Shown piece after piece: positions 51,963 to 60,013 of a DNA stretch of 64,000 nt. Positions within the stretch are counted from its first letter, which is position 1. Each line of letters begins with the position of its first letter. The position numbers were made by a program, and so were the translations under genes. Origin of the DNA: Pontibacter coccineus (GTDB lineage Bacteria > Bacteroidota > Bacteroidia > Cytophagales > Hymenobacteraceae); the NCBI RefSeq assembly GCF_030546575.1, contig NZ_JAUOTN010000002.1:248001-312000 (forward strand). Reading direction: 5' to 3'. The notes under the pieces are model-generated. The model was not told the DNA's origin. It saw only the letters and a program-made list of their open reading frames with translations, and searched no databases.

Positions 51963-52817
51963 ATGCTCATCAAACTCTTCACCCTGTATGTATACCTACA
52001 AACGGCGTTGTGTGGCTGCGGGCCAGACAGGCGCAACAGCGACTTTGAGCGACTGAGGAAAGATTACAAGGTGAAGGTAGAACGCATCGGCCGCCTGGAC
52101 ACACGCATCAGGGAAAGCTCCGGCCTAGCGCATGCTACCGACAGCACGTTCTGGACGCACCCTGACAGTGGTCTGCCGGCTGAGCTATACCTGTTCAACC
52201 TGCAGGGCGAACTGTTGCAAACCGTACCACTGCCTATACCCAACCGTGACTGGGAAGAACTGGCACAGGATGACAAGGGTAATCTCTACATCGGAGACTT
52301 CGGCAACAACGCCAATGCCCGTCGCGACTTGCGGGTGTTTAAGGTGCAGGAAGGGATGACCGTGCAGGATACAATACTTTTCAATTTTGCCGACCAGCAG
52401 GATTTTCCACCACCGGCGCAGCAGCGCCACTTCGATCTGGAGGCTTTCTTTTACCGTGCTGACAGCCTGCACCTTTTCACCAAGAGCCGCGCCCGCAAAG
52501 GCATCACCCGCCGCTATACCTTGCCTGCCACAGCGGGTAACTATACCTTGCCGCCACAGGAAGAACTGCGGGTGAGCTCCGCCATCACAGCCGCCGACAG
52601 CAACCCGAACGGAAAAGACTTTGCTCTGTTGGGGTATGGGCGACTATACCTGTTCGAGCCCGAAAATGAGCAGGTGCAGTTTGCCGGCAAGCGCTATTGC
52701 CTGCCGCTGGCCCGCACGGGTCAGGCGGAGGCGGTGCTATACCTGTCGCCAACGGAACTGCTCATCAGCAACGAAAAAGGCCAGCTATACCTGGTTAGCC
52801 TTGAATTGAAACGGTAA
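51963..52817 (+). CDS. Lipoprotein with beta-propeller-like repeats, function unknown
   Basis: 284 residues with a probable lipobox (TALCGC near residue 18). The body has beta-strand-like segments: GLAHATDSTFWTHPDSGLPAELYLFNLQGELLQT, DWEELAQDDKGNLYIGDFGNN and LLGYGRLYLFEPENEQ, like SdiA-regulated or phytase-type propellers. I do not assign a function. It is preceded by AACAATTCAACC-like repeats and followed after about 115 bp by the NmrA gene. Confidence 0.72.
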   Translation: MLIKLFTLYVYLQTALCGCGPDRRNSDFERLRKDYKVKVERIGRLDTRIRESSGLAHATDSTFWTHPDSGLPAELYLFNLQGELLQTVPLPIPNRDWEELAQDDKGNLYIGDFGNNANARRDLRVFKVQEGMTVQDTILFNFADQQDFPPPAQQRHFDLEAFFYRADSLHLFTKSRARKGITRRYTLPATAGNYTLPPQEELRVSSAITAADSNPNGKDFALLGYGRLYLFEPENEQVQFAGKRYCLPLARTGQAEAVLYLSPTELLISNEKGQLYLVSLELKR

Positions 52818-52931: not shown

Positions 52932-53798
52932 ATGCGACAAACGATATTGGTAACAGGCGCTACAGGTACGGTAGGCCATGAAATTGTAAAACAGCTTGCC
53001 ATGCAGGACGTCACGGTGCGGGCAGGCGTGCACTCTGTCATCAAAGGAGAAAACCTGAAGCGATTGCCCGGTGTGGAGATCGTGGAGATCGACTTCACCG
53101 ACCCTGCTTCGCTGCATGCCGCCTTCACGAACGCAGACCAGCTGGTACTCATTACACCACTCTCCGAAAGTCAACTGGAGATGGTCCGCAACCTGGTAGA
53201 AGAGGCGAAGAGAAGAGGTGTAAAATATATTGTCAGGCTGTCGGCGCTGGGAGCCGGAGCGGAGCCAGGTATACAGTTGGGCCGCTGGCACCGGGAGATG
53301 GAAAAGTATGTGGAGGAGAGCGGCATCCCTTACACCATTCTCCGGCCTGCGGGCTTTATGCAGAATCTTGTAAACTATAGTGCTGAATCTATTAAGCGGG
53401 AAGGCAAGTTCTACATGCCCGTAGGAGAGGGCAGGGTCAGCTACATCGATACCCGTGATATTGCGGCAGTGGCCGTGGAGGTGCTGCTGTCAGACGAGCA
53501 TCATTGGAAGGTATACGAACTGACCGGTCCGGAAGCACTTTCGCATCAGGAAATGGCGGCGCACCTGGGGGAGGTAACCGGCAAGAAAATAGACTTTGTG
53601 GATGTGCCTGAGCAAGCAGTCCGGGAATCCATGCTGGCGCATCACACGCCAGCGCCAATAGCAGACGCTATCTTAGAATTGTATGCTGCTTACAGAGCTG
53701 GAAAATCTGCCATGGTAACGGATACAGTACAGGGGTTGACAGGCCGTGCTCCCCACAGTTTCCGGCAGTTTGCCAACGATTACCAGGAGTGCTTTTAA
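52932..53798 (+). CDS. NmrA-family NAD(P)-binding reductase
   Basis: 288 residues. VTGATGTVGHEIVKQL is the Rossmann motif; DFTDPASLHAAFTNADQLVLITP and RPAGFMQNLVNYS are typical of NmrA/QorB-like atypical SDRs. It lacks the YxxxK catalytic pair, so it may be a redox sensor or reductase of quinone-like substrates. Single gene with a strong palindrome downstream. Confidence 0.86.
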   Translation: MRQTILVTGATGTVGHEIVKQLAMQDVTVRAGVHSVIKGENLKRLPGVEIVEIDFTDPASLHAAFTNADQLVLITPLSESQLEMVRNLVEEAKRRGVKYIVRLSALGAGAEPGIQLGRWHREMEKYVEESGIPYTILRPAGFMQNLVNYSAESIKREGKFYMPVGEGRVSYIDTRDIAAVAVEVLLSDEHHWKVYELTGPEALSHQEMAAHLGEVTGKKIDFVDVPEQAVRESMLAHHTPAPIADAILELYAAYRAGKSAMVTDTVQGLTGRAPHSFRQFANDYQECF

Positions 53799-53830: not shown

Positions 53831-53865
53831 AAGAGGGCCCTTCCTGTTTCAGGAAGGGCCCTCTT
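53831..53865 (-). terminator. Terminator of the low-complexity protein gene
   Basis: AAGAGGGCCCTTCCTG (53831-53846) pairs exactly with CAGGAAGGGCCCTCTT (53850-53865). On the minus strand six T follow, so it mainly serves the gene at 53884; it could also end the convergent NmrA transcript. Confidence 0.9.
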
Positions 53866-53883: not shown

Positions 53884-55923
53884 TTAGTCAAGGTCGCGGT
53901 AACGGTCGCTTCTTCTTGTCTCGAAGTCGCTGCTGTCATCGTCGTAGCTGGAGCGTCCGCGCTGCGAAGAGCTCTGGCCGCCCATGCCACTGCGATAATT
54001 TTCGCGTGAAGACGAACCCTGGTTATCGCTGTAGTAAGAGGTGCCGCTGTCCATAGAGCCGTAACGGCTCTGGTCGCCGCCTCGTCCGCCCTGACCGTAG
54101 CCACCTTCGCGGTAACCACTCTGGCCATAGCCGCTCATGCCGCCGCTTCTTTCAGAGCCACCGTAGCCGCCACTGCTCATAGAGCCGTAGCCACCCTGGG
54201 AGCTGCCCATAGAGCCAGAGCCGCCCTGCGAAGAAGAACCGTAGCCTCCTTGCGAGCCACTGCGGCTGCCCATTGAACCGTAACCACCCTGTGAAGACGA
54301 GCCGTAGCCGCCTTGTGAGCCCTGGCGGGAAGAACCACCGTAGCTGCTCTGTGAACCGTAGTTGTCACCGTAAGAGCTTCCACCACGGCCGCCCTGAGAC
54401 GAACGGTACTCATCGTTGTAAGAGCCACCGCGTGAGCCGTAGCCGCCCTGCGATCCATAGCCACCTTGCATAGAGCTCTGTGAGCTGTACCCTCTTTGTG
54501 ATCCATAGTCATCTCGATCATACTCACTCATGCCTCTGGATGAACCGTAGCCCATGGAGCCGTAACGATCACGATCGCCGTAGCCACCCTGGGAGCTGCC
54601 CATAGAGCCAGAGCCGCCCTGCGAAGAAGAACCGTAGCCTCCTTGCGAGCCACTGCGGCCGCTCATAGAGCCAGATCCGCCTTGTGAGGATGAGCTGTAG
54701 CCGCTGCTGTCGCCGTAGCCACGCTGCATGCCACTGCCCTGCGACGAACTGTAACCACTCTGGGAACCACGCTGGCCATAATCGCCTTGTCCGTAGCCCT
54801 GCTGATAGCTACCTTGGCTACCATAGCCACCATGCATGTTTGATCTGGATGAACCAGAGCCACTCATGCTGGAACCGTAACCTTCCTGTCCACTGCCCTG
54901 CGAACCATAACCGCCTTGAGACGAGCCGCCATAATTGCCCTGGTTGCTGCTGCGGTAGCCGCCGCCTTGTTCGTATCCGCCACGGCCACTGTCGTAGCTG
55001 CCGTAGCCACCCTGGTTAGAGCTGCTGCCCTGCATGCCAAAAGAGCCTTGCGAACCACCGTAGCTCTGGCCACCGATGTTATCGCCTTCTCTGTCCTGCA
55101 TGCCGCCCTGCATACCACCTCTCGAGGCACCGTAGTCCTGATCCTGGTAGCGGGTGCGGTTGCCTTCCATGCCTCCCTGGTTGCCATAGTTAAAGCCGCC
55201 CTGCGAGCCACCGTAGTTGCCTTGTGAGGACGAGCCGTGGCCACCTTGAGAAGATGAGCTGTAGCCGCTGCTGTCGCCGTAGCCACGCTGCATGCCACCG
55301 CCCTGCTGCGAAGAGCCATAGTCGCCCTGGTAACCATAACCACTCTGGCCACCGTAGCCGCCGCTGTTCTGCGAGCCATAACCGTAGCCGCCCTGCGAGC
55401 CATAGCCCTGCTGGCTGTCACCGTAGTTTTGGCCGCCCTGCTGCGAGCCGTAGCCGCCCATGCCGCCTTGCTGCTGGCTGCCATAGCCTTGCTGTGAGCC
55501 GCTCTGGCTGCCGTAGCTCTGGTCGCTGCTGCCCATGGAGCTGCTGCTATCAGAATCTTTGCTGCCTCTGGAAGAGGTAGAAGATTTTCCTGATTTTGAA
55601 TCAGAAGTTTTGGAAGAGGTTTTAGTGCCTGACTTGGCTTTTGTACCTGTTGACTTGCTGTCTGAAGAAGTGGATTTGCTGCTGCTCTTCGATGATGGAC
55701 TAGAGCTGGAAGATGACGATCCCATGCCGGAACTTCCCTGGCTCATGGAGCCCATACCAGAACCGCTTTGACTAGAACCACTTTGGCTGGAACTGCCTAA
55801 GCTGGAGCCACTTTGACTAGAGCCGCTTAGGTTAGATCCGCTTTGGTTAGAGCTACCCGATGACGAGCTGCCCGACATACTTCCAGACTGGCTGGATGAC
55901 TGATTTTTTTCGTTTTCTTTCAT
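53884..55923 (-). CDS. 679-residue Ser/Gly/Tyr/Gln low-complexity protein (FUS/EWS-like prion-like composition)
   Basis: The whole product is low complexity. Residues about 1-75 are Ser/Gly/Gln repeats (SQSGS), about 76-135 are Ser/Lys/Thr-rich and basic, and about 136-650 are G/S-Y-G/S-Q repeats with about thirty GYG triplets plus scattered RG and RD. The end is charged (RRSDRYRDLD). No folded domain, signal peptide or membrane segment is visible. The pattern mimics the SYGQ-rich domains of human FUS, EWSR1 and TAF15, which form condensates. The cold-shock gene lies divergently about 400 bp away. The start is preceded by GAGGAG about 9 bases away, a Shine-Dalgarno-like site that is uncommon in Bacteroidota. 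Confidence 0.85.
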   Translation of the reverse strand: MKENEKNQSSSQSGSMSGSSSSGSSNQSGSNLSGSSQSGSSLGSSSQSGSSQSGSGMGSMSQGSSGMGSSSSSSSPSSKSSSKSTSSDSKSTGTKAKSGTKTSSKTSDSKSGKSSTSSRGSKDSDSSSSMGSSDQSYGSQSGSQQGYGSQQQGGMGGYGSQQGGQNYGDSQQGYGSQGGYGYGSQNSGGYGGQSGYGYQGDYGSSQQGGGMQRGYGDSSGYSSSSQGGHGSSSQGNYGGSQGGFNYGNQGGMEGNRTRYQDQDYGASRGGMQGGMQDREGDNIGGQSYGGSQGSFGMQGSSSNQGGYGSYDSGRGGYEQGGGYRSSNQGNYGGSSQGGYGSQGSGQEGYGSSMSGSGSSRSNMHGGYGSQGSYQQGYGQGDYGQRGSQSGYSSSQGSGMQRGYGDSSGYSSSSQGGSGSMSGRSGSQGGYGSSSQGGSGSMGSSQGGYGDRDRYGSMGYGSSRGMSEYDRDDYGSQRGYSSQSSMQGGYGSQGGYGSRGGSYNDEYRSSQGGRGGSSYGDNYGSQSSYGGSSRQGSQGGYGSSSQGGYGSMGSRSGSQGGYGSSSQGGSGSMGSSQGGYGSMSSGGYGGSERSGGMSGYGQSGYREGGYGQGGRGGDQSRYGSMDSGTSYYSDNQGSSSRENYRSGMGGQSSSQRGRSSYDDDSSDFETRRSDRYRDLD
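54185..54265 (-). repeat. 81-bp exact internal duplication, copy A
   Basis: Identical over 81 bases to 54578-54658 in the same reading frame of the low-complexity gene, implying recent in-frame duplication. Confidence 0.85.
54578..54658 (-). repeat. 81-bp exact internal duplication, copy B
   Basis: Second copy of the block at 54185-54265. A separate 46-base identity (54689-54734 and 55253-55298) also occurs in the same gene. Confidence 0.85.
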
Positions 55924-56269
55924 AGTTCTGATCTCCTCAGTTTATAGTTATAGATTAAATGGAATAGTAAAGGCTTGAATGAATTTGACTTCGCCATTGC
56001 GCAGCACAAGGTGCCGGAACAGAAGCAAAGCCTTGTTCACGCTACATCAAAAAAATGGTGATTATACCTATTTAGTTAGTGTAACTGAACGTTTTAGCTA
56101 TACGAACCTTACGGAGGAGGGTTATTAGGCGAACATCAGGAAATGGCGTGATTGTGGCTGGCGGAACTGCCCGCGGCACGATGCTTTGGGGTGATGCGGA
56201 ACCAAGGCTATGTCTCTGATTTAGATGACCTTTTTCTGATTCAAAAGGTCACATTATATTTTTATGAAT

Positions 56270-56303
56270 TTGGTTATTTATAAGAACTTATTTTTTACCT
56301 TTG
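56270..56303 (+). promoter_or_regulatory. Bacteroidota-type promoter of cspA
   Basis: TTG at 56270-56272, 23-nt spacer, TACCTTTG at 56296-56303. The leader to the ATG at 56329 is short and AT-rich. The rest of 55924-56269 shows no further gene. Confidence 0.72.
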
Positions 56304-56328
56304 CTTCTATTATTAACAATTATTTATC

Positions 56329-56520
56329 ATGCAAACAGGTAAAGTAAAATTCTACAACGTATCTAAGGGCTTCGGCTTCATCGTAGCTGACGATACAAAC
56401 CAAGACATCTTCGTTCACCAGACTGGTCTAGTTCACGAAATCCGTGAGAACGACCGTGTTTCTTTCGAAGTGAAAGATGGCAAAAAAGGATTGAATGCAA
56501 TTAACGTAGAGCGTATCTAA
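56329..56520 (+). CDS. cspA: Cold-shock domain protein
   Basis: 63 residues, a single cold-shock domain. RNP1 is KGFGFIVAD and RNP2 is DIFVHQTGL; the aromatic residues stack on single-stranded RNA or DNA. Such proteins melt RNA secondary structure at low temperature or during growth. Single gene with a good promoter and terminator, divergent from the low-complexity protein gene. Confidence 0.96.
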   Translation: MQTGKVKFYNVSKGFGFIVADDTNQDIFVHQTGLVHEIRENDRVSFEVKDGKKGLNAINVERI

Positions 56521-56565
56521 GTTAAAGAACATATAGCCCTTTAGGCAGGGCATTCATCTATTTTG

Positions 56566-56594
56566 ACCCGCTCAGTTTACTGAGCGGGTTTTTT
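56566..56594 (+). terminator. Rho-independent terminator of cspA
   Basis: ACCCGCTCAGT (56566-56576) pairs with ACTGAGCGGGT (56579-56589), followed by TTTTT. The convergent EEP gene ends at 56593, within the T run. Confidence 0.92.
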
Positions 56595-57891: not shown

Positions 57892-58368
57892 CTAATCGGC
57901 GGCTTCTTCCACACGCACCCCCACTGCCAGAATGTTCGGAAGCGGATCGCGGCGCATGTACTGCGTGAGCTGGAGGCGGTAAGTACCCACTTGCGGGAAC
58001 GTAACACCCTCGAGCGCAAGCGACTGCATGTCGTAAATGTCGCTCGATCCTTTGCCTTCAGGCTTCCCTGTTTTGGCATCCATCAGGTGCAGTTCGTGTA
58101 GCGACGACGACAACTGGCTGCTGTCCGGAGCCGTGAGGCGGTGCTGCAGGTATAGGTTATAGTAGTCGTAAGCCAAAGAGTAGCGCACATTGAAGTATAC
58201 GTTGTACCGCTTGGTGGTATCCTCAATGGCAAACTCAAACACGGGCGCATTGTCTACTGTCCAGTTCTTATCAGGCAGTTCTACGTTCTGCTCATATACC
58301 CGCGAGGGGTCGCAAGCCGACAGTAGAAAGGTGCCTGCTACTGCCAGCATTAGCATTATTTTACGCAT
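57892..58368 (-). CDS. gldH: Gliding-motility lipoprotein GldH
   Basis: 158 residues. Signal and lipobox MLAVAGTFLLSAC (Cys near 18), then DPSRVYEQNVELPDKNW, typical of GldH, and a beta-rich domain ending GVRVEEAAD. GldH is needed for gliding in Flavobacterium and is associated with the type IX secretion/gliding machinery. The ATG at 58368 overlaps the stop of the RicT gene by 8 bp, suggesting translational coupling. Confidence 0.93.
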   Translation of the reverse strand: MRKIMLMLAVAGTFLLSACDPSRVYEQNVELPDKNWTVDNAPVFEFAIEDTTKRYNVYFNVRYSLAYDYYNLYLQHRLTAPDSSQLSSSLHELHLMDAKTGKPEGKGSSDIYDMQSLALEGVTFPQVGTYRLQLTQYMRRDPLPNILAVGVRVEEAAD

Positions 58369-60013
58369 CTGGTGAAGGTGATTTAGGTTGGTCTGGTTTC
58401 GGCCCACGGTTCGGTCTGCGTGACCGCTGACGCCTGGGCTGCTGCGGTGCGCCATCGCCCTGCGGCGGCTGACCTTCCGGTCTGCCTTCACCACGAGGCT
58501 GTCTGGGCGCTCCGCCTTCCCGTGCCGGTCTCGGCTCACGCGGCTGCTTCTCGCCTTCCCTTGGCTGTCTATCCTCCCTGTTTTCACGTCCTTCACGATT
58601 GCCACGGTTGCGTGGCGGGCGCTGCTTTTTAGGGCGCTGGCCCTGTTCTGCCGGTGCTCCATCAACTCCTGCATCAGGCATTGCCGCTTTCGGCTGCTGC
58701 TGATCAGTAGGTTTTGCTTCGCGTGGGCCTCTGTCACGGCCACGGCCGTCCCGCTGGCCTCTGCTGTCGCGGGGTCCTCTGTCTTCACGTGGACCGCGGT
58801 CTTCCCGAGGAGCACGCGGCTCCCTGGGCTCACGGGTTTCGGTTTCCTGCACGCGATTTCCCGGTGCGCCTTCTACCTTATCGCCAACTGACTTTTTCTT
58901 CTTTTTCTTCTTCTTTTTGTTTTTGAACTTGTCGTCAAGGCGTTCGAGGCTGCCCTCTACCTGTGCTACAAATTCATTCTGCTTCGACTCTTGTACAGGC
59001 TCCTCCACCAGCGTTTCAGGTACAACGCCCTGGCTGTTCATTTTCAGGATTTCGTGCACGCGCTCCACCGGTACCGGGTACCAGTTATTGTCGCCCCGGT
59101 AGCCGAACCACATCATCTTTTTAAAGATGTCTGTTTTCTGCAGCATGGCGTCACCCTGCTTAGTCTGCAGCGGACGCGACACGGTAGGTATGTCCTTGAG
59201 CGCCTCCATGTAGGTTTCCAGTTCGTAGTTGAGGCAGCACTTCAGGCGTCCGCACTGGCCCGACAGTTTGCTCGGGTTAAGCGACAGGTTCTGGTAACGG
59301 GCAGCCGTAGTCGACACACTCTTGAAATCGGTGAGCCAGGTAGAGCAGCACAGTTCACGTCCGCAGGACCCTATACCTCCCAGGCGGCCGGCCTCGTGAC
59401 GCAGACTGATCTGGCGCATCTCGATGCGTACCTTAAACTCCTCGGCCAGCTTTTTGATCAGGTCACGGAAGTCGACGCGGTCGTCGGCTGAGTAGTAGAA
59501 AGTTGCCTTGGAGCGGTCGGCCTGAAATTCCACATCCGAGAGTTTCATGCGAAGTCCCGTCTGCTGGATGATTTCGCGGGAACGGTACATGGTTGTGGCT
59601 TCCTGCTCCTGCACTTCGCGCAGCTTCTCCAGATCGCGCTCATTGGCGATGCGGTAGATGGTGCGTATCTCCTCGTTGTTGTCTACCTTCTTCTTGAGCA
59701 TCTGCAGGCGCACGAGCTCGCCTTTCAGCGATACATTGCCTATGTGATGCCCATTGGGAACGTCTACGACCACCGGGTCGCCGGTGGTCAGGTCGAGTCT
59801 GTTTATGTTTCGGAAGAAATCTTTGCGTCCTCCCTTGAATCTTATTTCTACGATGTCAAACTCCTCAAACGCGGTTGGAATCTCCATATCGCTGAGCCAG
59901 TCGAACACATTTAAACGGTTGCAGCCTCCTGTGCTACAGCCGCCGTTGCTTTTGCAGCCGCCTGGTTTTTCGCCGGTGCTGCATCCGCCACTAGAACATG
60001 AACTACATCCCAC
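58361..60013 (-). CDS. ricT: PSP1/RicT (YaaT)-like protein with long Lys- and Arg-rich tail
   Basis: 550 residues. A Cys-rich start (GCSSCSSGGCSTGEKPGGC) precedes the PSP1 core (about 45-340), with GGIGSCGRELCCSTWL and SGQCGRLKCCLNYE, cysteines that in RicT ligate Fe-S clusters of the RicAFT complex, a specificity factor for RNase Y. From about 370 the protein becomes a nine-Lys run and then a roughly 170-residue Arg/Pro/Gly/Glu-rich disordered tail, absent from B. subtilis RicT. Upstream of gldH and overlapping it, as commonly found in Bacteroidota. Confidence 0.9.
   Translation of the reverse strand: MGCSSCSSGGCSTGEKPGGCKSNGGCSTGGCNRLNVFDWLSDMEIPTAFEEFDIVEIRFKGGRKDFFRNINRLDLTTGDPVVVDVPNGHHIGNVSLKGELVRLQMLKKKVDNNEEIRTIYRIANERDLEKLREVQEQEATTMYRSREIIQQTGLRMKLSDVEFQADRSKATFYYSADDRVDFRDLIKKLAEEFKVRIEMRQISLRHEAGRLGGIGSCGRELCCSTWLTDFKSVSTTAARYQNLSLNPSKLSGQCGRLKCCLNYELETYMEALKDIPTVSRPLQTKQGDAMLQKTDIFKKMMWFGYRGDNNWYPVPVERVHEILKMNSQGVVPETLVEEPVQESKQNEFVAQVEGSLERLDDKFKNKKKKKKKKKSVGDKVEGAPGNRVQETETREPREPRAPREDRGPREDRGPRDSRGQRDGRGRDRGPREAKPTDQQQPKAAMPDAGVDGAPAEQGQRPKKQRPPRNRGNREGRENREDRQPREGEKQPREPRPAREGGAPRQPRGEGRPEGQPPQGDGAPQQPRRQRSRRPNRGPKPDQPKSPSPDA

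Follow-up and report, generated by a model that had tools for sequence, protein, structure and literature searches.

The window analysed here is a stretch of 64,000 nucleotides from Pontibacter coccineus (family Hymenobacteraceae; contig NZ_JAUOTN010000002.1, positions 248,001 to 312,000 of the forward strand). At 53884–55923, on the minus strand, it carries a gene that starts with ATG and encodes a protein of 679 residues, predicted to be disordered along its whole length. The original prediction had likened this product to the prion-like domains of the animal proteins FUS, EWS and TAF15 (together, FET proteins). The gene and the elements that belong to it are as follows.

53884–55923, minus strand: gene of the 679-residue, wholly disordered Ser/Gly/Gln/Tyr/Arg protein (open reading frame, orthologs, ratio of nonsynonymous to synonymous substitution rates (dN/dS), AlphaFold)
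55519–55923, minus strand: Ser-rich N-terminal tail, residues 1–135, with all 12 Lys and no Tyr (composition count)
55312–55407, minus strand: conserved block 1, residues 173–204, GYGSQGGYGYGSQ..YGGQSGYGYQGDYGS (ortholog alignment)
55081–55200, minus strand: conserved block 2, residues 242–281, GGFNYGNQGGMEGNR..RGGMQGGMQDREGD (ortholog alignment)
54397–54570, minus strand: conserved block 3, residues 452–509, with the family signature GSRGGSYNDEYRSS (alignment and GGSYNDEY DNA pattern)
53995–54105, minus strand: conserved block 4, residues 607–643, GGYGQGGRGGDQSRYGSMDSGTSYYSDNQGSSSRENY (ortholog alignment)
56099–56125, minus strand: promoter-like element of the extracytoplasmic function (ECF) sigma type, ATAAC at 56121–56125, 16-nt spacer, CGTATA at 56099–56104 (conservation)
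53831–53865, minus strand: intrinsic-terminator-like hairpin with a 16-bp stem, 3′ of the gene (terminator-like fold)

Ser (29.2%), Gly (28.1%), Gln (10.8%) and Tyr (8.8%) make up 77% of the product, the Ser/Tyr/Gly/Gln-dominated low complexity of FET proteins; Arg (5.0%) and Asp (4.7%) follow. The protein contains short tandem repeats. It has 26 GYG (counted with overlaps), 41 YG, 12 RG and 5 RGG motifs. The expected composition and RG motifs were therefore present, but the roughly thirty GYG triplets came to 26, and the chain is not uniformly made of SYGQ repeats. Residues 1–135 are Ser-rich and hold 12 Lys, 1 Arg and 0 Tyr, with a basic stretch at residues 79–122; the body (residues 136–679) holds 60 of the 60 Tyr, 33 of the 34 Arg and 0 Lys. 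The charged end that had been described is there, as YDDDSSDFETRRSDRYRDLD.

Searches of Pfam and of NCBIfam returned no family at E ≤ 1 and no sorting domain. AlphaFold2, run on a 29-row alignment, gave a mean predicted local distance difference test score (pLDDT) of 36.3, a predicted template modelling score of 0.18 and no residue at ≥ 70. The claim that the protein has no folded domain thus holds. So does the claim that it has no export signal, to the extent that none is visible by eye in the N-terminal MKENEKNQ, with no signal-peptide predictor run. A phmmer search of PDB chains, which tests low-complexity sequence poorly, found PRY1 (E 0.0074) and an antibody chain only; both matches are weak, and we took them as compositional and rejected them as relatives. 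A ribosome-binding-like AGGAG lies nine bases 5′ of the ATG.

Conservation was assessed in an uneven draw of 200 Hymenobacteraceae genomes: 50 from Pontibacter (g1, recognized by protein identity with named Pontibacter contigs) and, from other genera of the family, 2 from g2, 8 from g3, 8 from g4, 116 from g5 and 16 from g6. A whole-genome search found orthologs in all 50 of the Pontibacter genomes, that of P. coccineus included, as frames of 571–729 amino acids without an internal stop. When the 679-residue protein was compared with eight other Pontibacter proteins (Nei–Gojobori-type script, ungapped aligned codons), dN/dS was 0.08–0.22 in the eight pairs. With 181 of the 200 family genomes also matching the profile described below, the frame is kept in relatives, the point on which the original prediction had let its case depend.

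These results bear directly on whether 53884–55923 is a gene at all. Low-complexity sequence can hold long open frames by chance, and a second frame of 206 amino acids does lie on the same strand inside this one. Against a chance frame in repeats stand the low dN/dS, the frame left open in every Pontibacter genome, the promoter-like element and terminator in place at its two ends, and the many ways in which the signature GGSYNDEY is encoded (the 137 matches in the retrieved loci, among which some genomes occur twice, use 62 different codings). That explanation is already refuted: 53884–55923 is a real, selected gene.

To see what selection holds, we compared 33 distinct Pontibacter proteins, obtained from 51 loci after identical ones were dropped (the best 30 of 50 genomes plus three from named contigs; for L014 and L051 the start was moved to an internal ATG in agreement with their orthologs). 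Their grand average of hydropathy (GRAVY) ranges from -1.56 to -1.29, with -1.36 for the P. coccineus protein. Four blocks are near-invariant among them and include RYGSMGYGSSRGMSEYDRDDYGSQRG, SQSSMQGGYGSQGGYGSRGGSYNDEY and GGDQSRYGSMDSGTSYYSDNQGSSSRENY; RRSDRYR near the C-terminus is likewise nearly invariant. Because of these blocks the protein is more than a composition.

Residue numbers are also constrained, and unequally so. Each protein has 59.5 ± 3.6 Tyr, 35.9 ± 2.5 Arg and 12.5 ± 1.5 Lys, with variance-to-mean ratios of 0.22, 0.17 and 0.19, respectively, compared with 0.82 for Gln, 1.95 for Ser, 1.99 for Gly, 2.48 for Thr and 4.57 for Asn. Since relatedness lowers every such ratio alike, it is the contrast between residue types that counts. 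Tyr also has the highest mean positional identity of any residue type (0.78). Its spacing was more even than in shuffled sequences in five of five proteins tested (a fraction of 0.000–0.026 of the 1000 shuffles reached the same evenness), so that Tyr window variance lay below that of at least 97% of the shuffles, as in the evenly spaced aromatics of FET-type domains.

The division of the chain recurs in other genera. Of the Lys residues, 409 of 411 in the 33 Pontibacter proteins, 19 of 19 in g2, 163 of 171 in g3, 84 of 86 in g4 and 135 of 136 in g5 fall within the first 30% of the chain; of the Arg residues, 1136 of 1185 in Pontibacter, 288 of 293 in g3, 336 of 352 in g4 and 467 of 505 in g5 fall within the last 70%. 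Mean contents of the long forms in the five genera are 6.8–9.3% for Tyr, 11–26% for Ser and 5–14% for Asn. Judged from these alignments and counts, selection in Pontibacter is holding the Tyr, Arg and Lys, the putative “stickers”, while Ser, Gly, Asn and Thr drift.

The gene is preceded by a 405-bp divergent region that mostly drifts, apart from a block at about 56078–56125 that is nearly invariant in the 33 Pontibacter loci. On the strand of the gene this block contains ATAAC-N16-CGTATA, and the pattern AAC-N16/17-CGTAT[A/G] was found 5′ of the gene in 77 of the 79 loci with a testable CGTAT[A/G] (33 of 33 in Pontibacter, 2 of 2 in g2, 8 of 8 in g3, 8 of 8 in g4 and 26 of 28 in g5), and with it the layout of an ECF-sigma regulon: a -35 AAC, a -10 CGT and a spacer of 16–17 nt. 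The scan covered 450 bases before each frame and 150 inside it, as some listed starts lie too far upstream; two g5 loci (L102 and L114) in which CGTATA is present with fewer than 32 bases of sequence before it were excluded from the 79. AAC occurred 56 times at a spacing of 16 and 22 times at 17, against 0–4 times at each of the other spacings from 3 to 28. A scan for sigma-70 promoters gave chance-level sites only.

Because the AAC/CGTAT spacing is fixed in the sense of the disordered-protein gene, and is found also where no cold-shock gene adjoins (g4), we took the conserved block for the putative promoter of this gene and rejected a role as leader of the divergent cold-shock gene. The EcfG general stress promoters of Alphaproteobacteria have the form GGAAC-N16/17-CGTT. 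They share the layout AAC-N16/17-CGT with the element described here, and their targets look similar in type; they differ in that the -10 here continues as AT(A/G). Several g5 sites read GGAAC-N16-CGTATG. ECF-sigma promoters are described with GGAACA and GTT elements and an optimum spacer of 17 bp (PMC6411747). The roughly 20 bases after the -10 (56078–56098, minus strand, GCTAAAACGTTCAGTTACACT) are conserved in Pontibacter nearly as well as the promoter itself and could be an operator or leader element; beyond them the leader of about 150 nt is mostly unconserved.

The same pattern, in its exact form AAC-N16-CGTATA, recurs before related genes in six Pontibacter genomes (P. coccineus and five others). 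Of 109 sites, 104 were examined, the other five being those of this gene’s orthologs in the five other genomes; 67 of the 104 are crossed by no open frame of 150 amino acids or more. The pattern precedes the disordered-protein gene and a DUF892-type gene in 6 of 6 genomes each, a gene for a very hydrophilic protein of 121–124 amino acids and DUF4142-type lipoprotein genes in 5 of 6 each, and, in 3, a gene for a hydrophilic protein rich in His and Glu. It also precedes SDR-enzyme and DUF4136 genes in 2 genomes each and Hsp20 and SPW genes in 1 each. Pfam names were taken from one member per cluster and extended to the others by BLAST. DUF892 is the family of YciF. DUF892, DUF4142, Hsp20 and small hydrophilic proteins are expected members of general stress regulons.

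In the 121–124-residue hydrophilic protein (L164, L183, L196, L239 and L263) the site lies 26–29 nt before the start, and the two closest members read share RKGQTMGNxPDPSAKRNxG; the member searched (L164) had no Pfam match. Other clusters carried less weight. A cluster of 91–94-residue proteins in 5 genomes is weaker, four of its five sites lying in open frames of 118–132 amino acids, and the one member run had no Pfam match. An MlaD-like cluster, seen in all six genomes, was discounted because its site in P. coccineus lies inside an upstream frame of 260 amino acids and is probably conserved as coding sequence, and the clusters L163/L188 and L180/L213 were rejected as looking like spurious frames.

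We next mapped the family with a profile (A2) built from 22 chosen long-form rows from five genera, leaving out the short g5 forms; the source genomes of these rows match by construction. It matched 50 of 50 genomes in Pontibacter, 2 of 2 in g2, 8 of 8 in g3, 8 of 8 in g4, 113 of 116 in g5 and 0 of 16 in g6 and, among Cytophagales genomes, 42 of the 45 from the family and 0 of the 246 from outside it. Searched as degenerate DNA, GGSYNDEY occurred in 103 of the 200 family genomes, once per matching genome (46 of 50 in Pontibacter, 0 of 2 in g2, 8 of 8 in g3, 5 of 8 in g4, 44 of 116 in g5 and 0 of 16 in g6); the pattern read in reverse, as a control, matched 0 of 200. Across the order, 16 of 291 genomes carried GGSYNDEY, all 16 from Hymenobacteraceae.

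Sensitivity differed between methods. BLAST with the single sequence failed to find g2, g4, half of the g3 genomes and almost all of those in g5, the rest being recovered by A2 and the DNA pattern, and a Pontibacter-only profile (A1) matched Pontibacter and, weakly, 11 g5 genomes. A missing A2 match is no proof of absence, because two of the three g5 genomes without one (G169 and G175) carry the DNA pattern. The idea of one copy per genome throughout the family was dropped: G086 carries both a long-frame match and, on a separate contig, a short form. Two forms occur in g5 (L080–L087 and L096–L121), one long and Tyr/Arg-rich, the other short and Ala/Pro-rich with few Tyr; the short form amounts to a natural experiment in having few stickers.

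The neighbouring features are as follows.

56329–56520, plus strand: cold-shock-domain protein gene (csp), 63 amino acids, divergent (PF00313, 1.4e-18; synteny)
56296–56303, plus strand: TACCTTTG, a Bacteroidota-type -7 element 25 nt before the csp ATG (position and consensus)
52932–53798, plus strand: NmrA-like NAD(P)-binding protein gene, convergent neighbour (PF05368; synteny)
51963–52817, plus strand: weak phytase-like/SdiA-regulated matches below Pfam cut-offs, used as a syntenic marker (Pfam; synteny)

A cold-shock gene had been placed across a divergent region of 400 bp; the 405-bp distance and the PF00313 match agree with this. Among loci with enough flank, a divergently oriented csp lies within 1.2 kb in 31 of 31 cases in Pontibacter, 2 of 2 in g2, 3 of 4 in g3 and 9 of 9 for the short form in g5 (the long g5 loci had too little flank), and adjoins the gene in 0 of 7 loci in g4. 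In 27 of 33 Pontibacter loci the motif TANNTTTG, the usual -7 element of Bacteroidota, starts 32–34 nt upstream of the csp start codon, whereas the disordered-protein gene has the ECF-type promoter-like element found also before stress-type genes. The proposed link to cold or RNA biology is therefore borne out only in part: csp adjoins the gene in four of five genera, but because it is absent beside it in one genus and usually has its own promoter, the link is only suggestive. Adjacency may even be passive, as 4–7 csp-like matches were found per genome in the 30 family genomes searched outside Pontibacter.

Where at least 1.3 kb lies downstream, the NmrA gene is found 3′ in 28 of 28 Pontibacter loci, 2 of 2 in g2, 1 of 4 in g3, 8 of 8 in g4 and, in g5, 2 of 10 long and 1 of 20 short loci; the corresponding counts for the SdiA-like gene are 25 of 28, 2 of 2, 1 of 4, 8 of 8, 7 of 10 and 16 of 20. 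The csp region also matches the cspA thermoregulator RF01766 of Rfam (56165–56594, plus strand; 38.5 bits, E 1.1e-7, gathering score 78). As the match is below gathering and covers leader and coding region unseparated, we did not build on a thermosensor RNA. Farther away, the gene at 58361–60013 (minus strand), presumably for a PSP1-like protein, encodes a Cys-rich N-terminus (MGCSSCSSGGCSTGEK...), a Lys run and then a long C-terminal stretch of PRED/RG repeats that looks disordered.

The closest points of comparison are FET proteins and hydrophilins. In FET proteins the prion-like domain is linked to an RNA-recognition motif or zinc finger; the bacterial protein is low-complexity throughout and has neither (no Pfam match at E ≤ 1, no fold in AlphaFold). 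It shares with them SYGQ composition, even aromatics, disorder, and Tyr and Arg as potential stickers, and differs in its Lys-rich N-terminal tail, its lower share of aromatics and its confinement to one family in the order sampled. Animal prion-like low-complexity domains are described as having 15–20% aromatic residues that are evenly placed, with conserved composition and patterning (PMC9748015), and FUS condensation as driven by Tyr–Arg contacts (PMC5927716). The proposed FET likeness is thus upheld for the SYGQ grammar, the even Tyr and the constrained Tyr and Arg in Pontibacter, and fails for the aromatic share.

Hydrophilins are defined by Gly > 6% and GRAVY < -1, thresholds that are insufficient by the source’s own account (PMC4190154); with 28.1% Gly and a GRAVY of -1.36, the Pontibacter protein falls within both. 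It departs from the late embryogenesis abundant (LEA)/hydrophilin class in having more Gly than the hydrophilin maximum of 16.8% and in being rich in Tyr and Arg, where LEA proteins favour Lys over Arg and true LEA proteins Ala (PMC4190154). DtpA and DtpB of Acinetobacter are hydrophilins that support desiccation tolerance, in a gene cluster that also holds catalase (PMC13232832). The Pontibacter protein would be of the same hydrophilin kind and differs from them, by description, in being long, Tyr/Arg- and Gly/Ser-rich and marked by conserved blocks. Protective aggregates linked to desiccation have been described in bacteria (PMC10534466), and a survey of bacterial prion-like proteins lists Bacteroidetes among the phyla with most predictions, its main text containing neither of the words Pontibacter and Hymenobacter (PMC6400439). 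Titles and the beginnings of abstracts gave no account of this protein or of any bacterial protein consisting of SYGQ repeats throughout. In the libraries searched the family is new, and its kind, a disordered stress protein of prion-like composition, is already known.

We propose that this is a cytoplasmic, fully disordered Hymenobacteraceae protein that is expressed from an ECF-type promoter as part of a general-stress regulon and works as a condensing hydrophilin, an explanation that is plausible on the sequence evidence and could equally prove wrong. An ECF sigma factor would drive the gene under stress together with the rest of the regulon, the Lys/Ser-rich N-terminal tail would contact polyanions (RNA, ribosomes or DNA), and the roughly 60 evenly spaced Tyr and 35 Arg of the body would act as stickers between hydrophilic spacers of Gly, Ser, Gln and Asn. 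On drying, salt or cold, the protein may then gather into reversible droplets or a gel, shielding the contents of the cell. A bolder version, which we hold more tentatively and consider somewhat less probable, is that Hymenobacteraceae evolved, independently of animals, a FUS-like scaffold that is a whole protein under general-stress control and builds a reversible protective compartment, a bacterial stress granule. Its Tyr, Arg and Lys numbers and layout would be under selection while the spacers drift, and the compartment would possibly include the cold-shock RNA chaperone of the adjoining gene.

The strongest competitor is a plain hydrophilin, a soluble disordered shield induced by stress (compare DtpA/DtpB and plant LEA proteins) that would hold water and keep enzymes apart without condensing. 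It is rather unlikely in our view, yet it deserves serious weight: the protein lies within both hydrophilin thresholds, its promoter pattern is common with genes of other hydrophilic proteins, and the short g5 forms stay hydrophilic with few Tyr. A shield of this sort, however, requires no fixed number of Tyr or Arg, no even Tyr and no Lys tail, and these are what is most constrained in Pontibacter. The protein could instead work together with the divergent cold-shock protein, as one half of a two-gene counterpart to fusions between cold-shock domains and glycine-rich tails that would gather Csp-bound RNA in the cold, an idea we find doubtful. The divergent csp in all Pontibacter, g2 and short g5 loci with flank and in 3 of 4 in g3 speaks for it, as does AtGRP2 of the Arabidopsis cold-shock-domain family, in which the glycine-rich disordered region is implicated in phase separation (PMC13261584). 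Such a partnership would be possible but not needed, because g4 retains the gene with no csp beside it (0 of 7); the separate housekeeping-type element of csp in 27 of 33 Pontibacter loci and the 4–7 csp-like matches per genome also speak against it.

Least probable of these, and in our judgement very unlikely, is an exported protein of the surface, a biofilm or a silk-like fibre. Condensation has been reported for spider silk and tick cement proteins, in which such residues abound (PMC12772222, PMC11794139), but MKENEKNQ shows no signal peptide by eye, no sorting domain was matched in Pfam or NCBIfam, and none of the four neighbours searched is a secretion gene.

Several observations weigh against the condensing, stress-controlled protein that we prefer. 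At 11.6%, the aromatic share of the body (residues 136–679) is below the 15–20% of the animal domains, and the even Tyr spacing may be partly due to the short tandem repeats. Across genera, Gln is as constant as Tyr (coefficients of variation, 0.08 and 0.11), mean Arg of the long forms (4.3–9.4%) is looser than within Pontibacter, and just 35 of 47 Arg in g2 fall within the last 70% of the chain. The short g5 forms keep motif and promoter with 3.2–4.5% Tyr and a GRAVY of -0.99 to -1.47; a Tyr-rich body is therefore unnecessary in some members. Genus g6 yielded nothing by DNA pattern or A2 profile in any of its 16 genomes (G054–G099), which may reflect loss or extreme divergence.

The promoter evidence has its own counterweights. 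Exact AAC-N16-CGTATA occurs 22 times in the P. coccineus genome against 31 for reversed controls, and 87 times in the five further Pontibacter genomes against 192. No genome-wide enrichment was thus found in the six, many single matches being chance; because the counts are below the controls, such matches mean little, and the regulon claim therefore rests on recurrence before related genes. Even there, open frames of at least 150 amino acids cover L164, L239 and L263 among the five sites of the hydrophilic protein and L194 among the six of DUF892, which places these four outside the list of 67. The first three were kept because their distance to the start is constant (26–29 nt), L194 because the gene recurs.

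If the proposed function is right, the sticker-and-spacer rules worked out on human proteins would also fit a selected bacterial protein, and the natural variants across genera would provide a ready test set for them. Stress-type genes of Bacteroidota would gain a long disordered protein that lies outside all Pfam and NCBIfam models. As Pontibacter carries it as a single gene, its deletion could show whether a dedicated condensate scaffold aids bacteria under stress.

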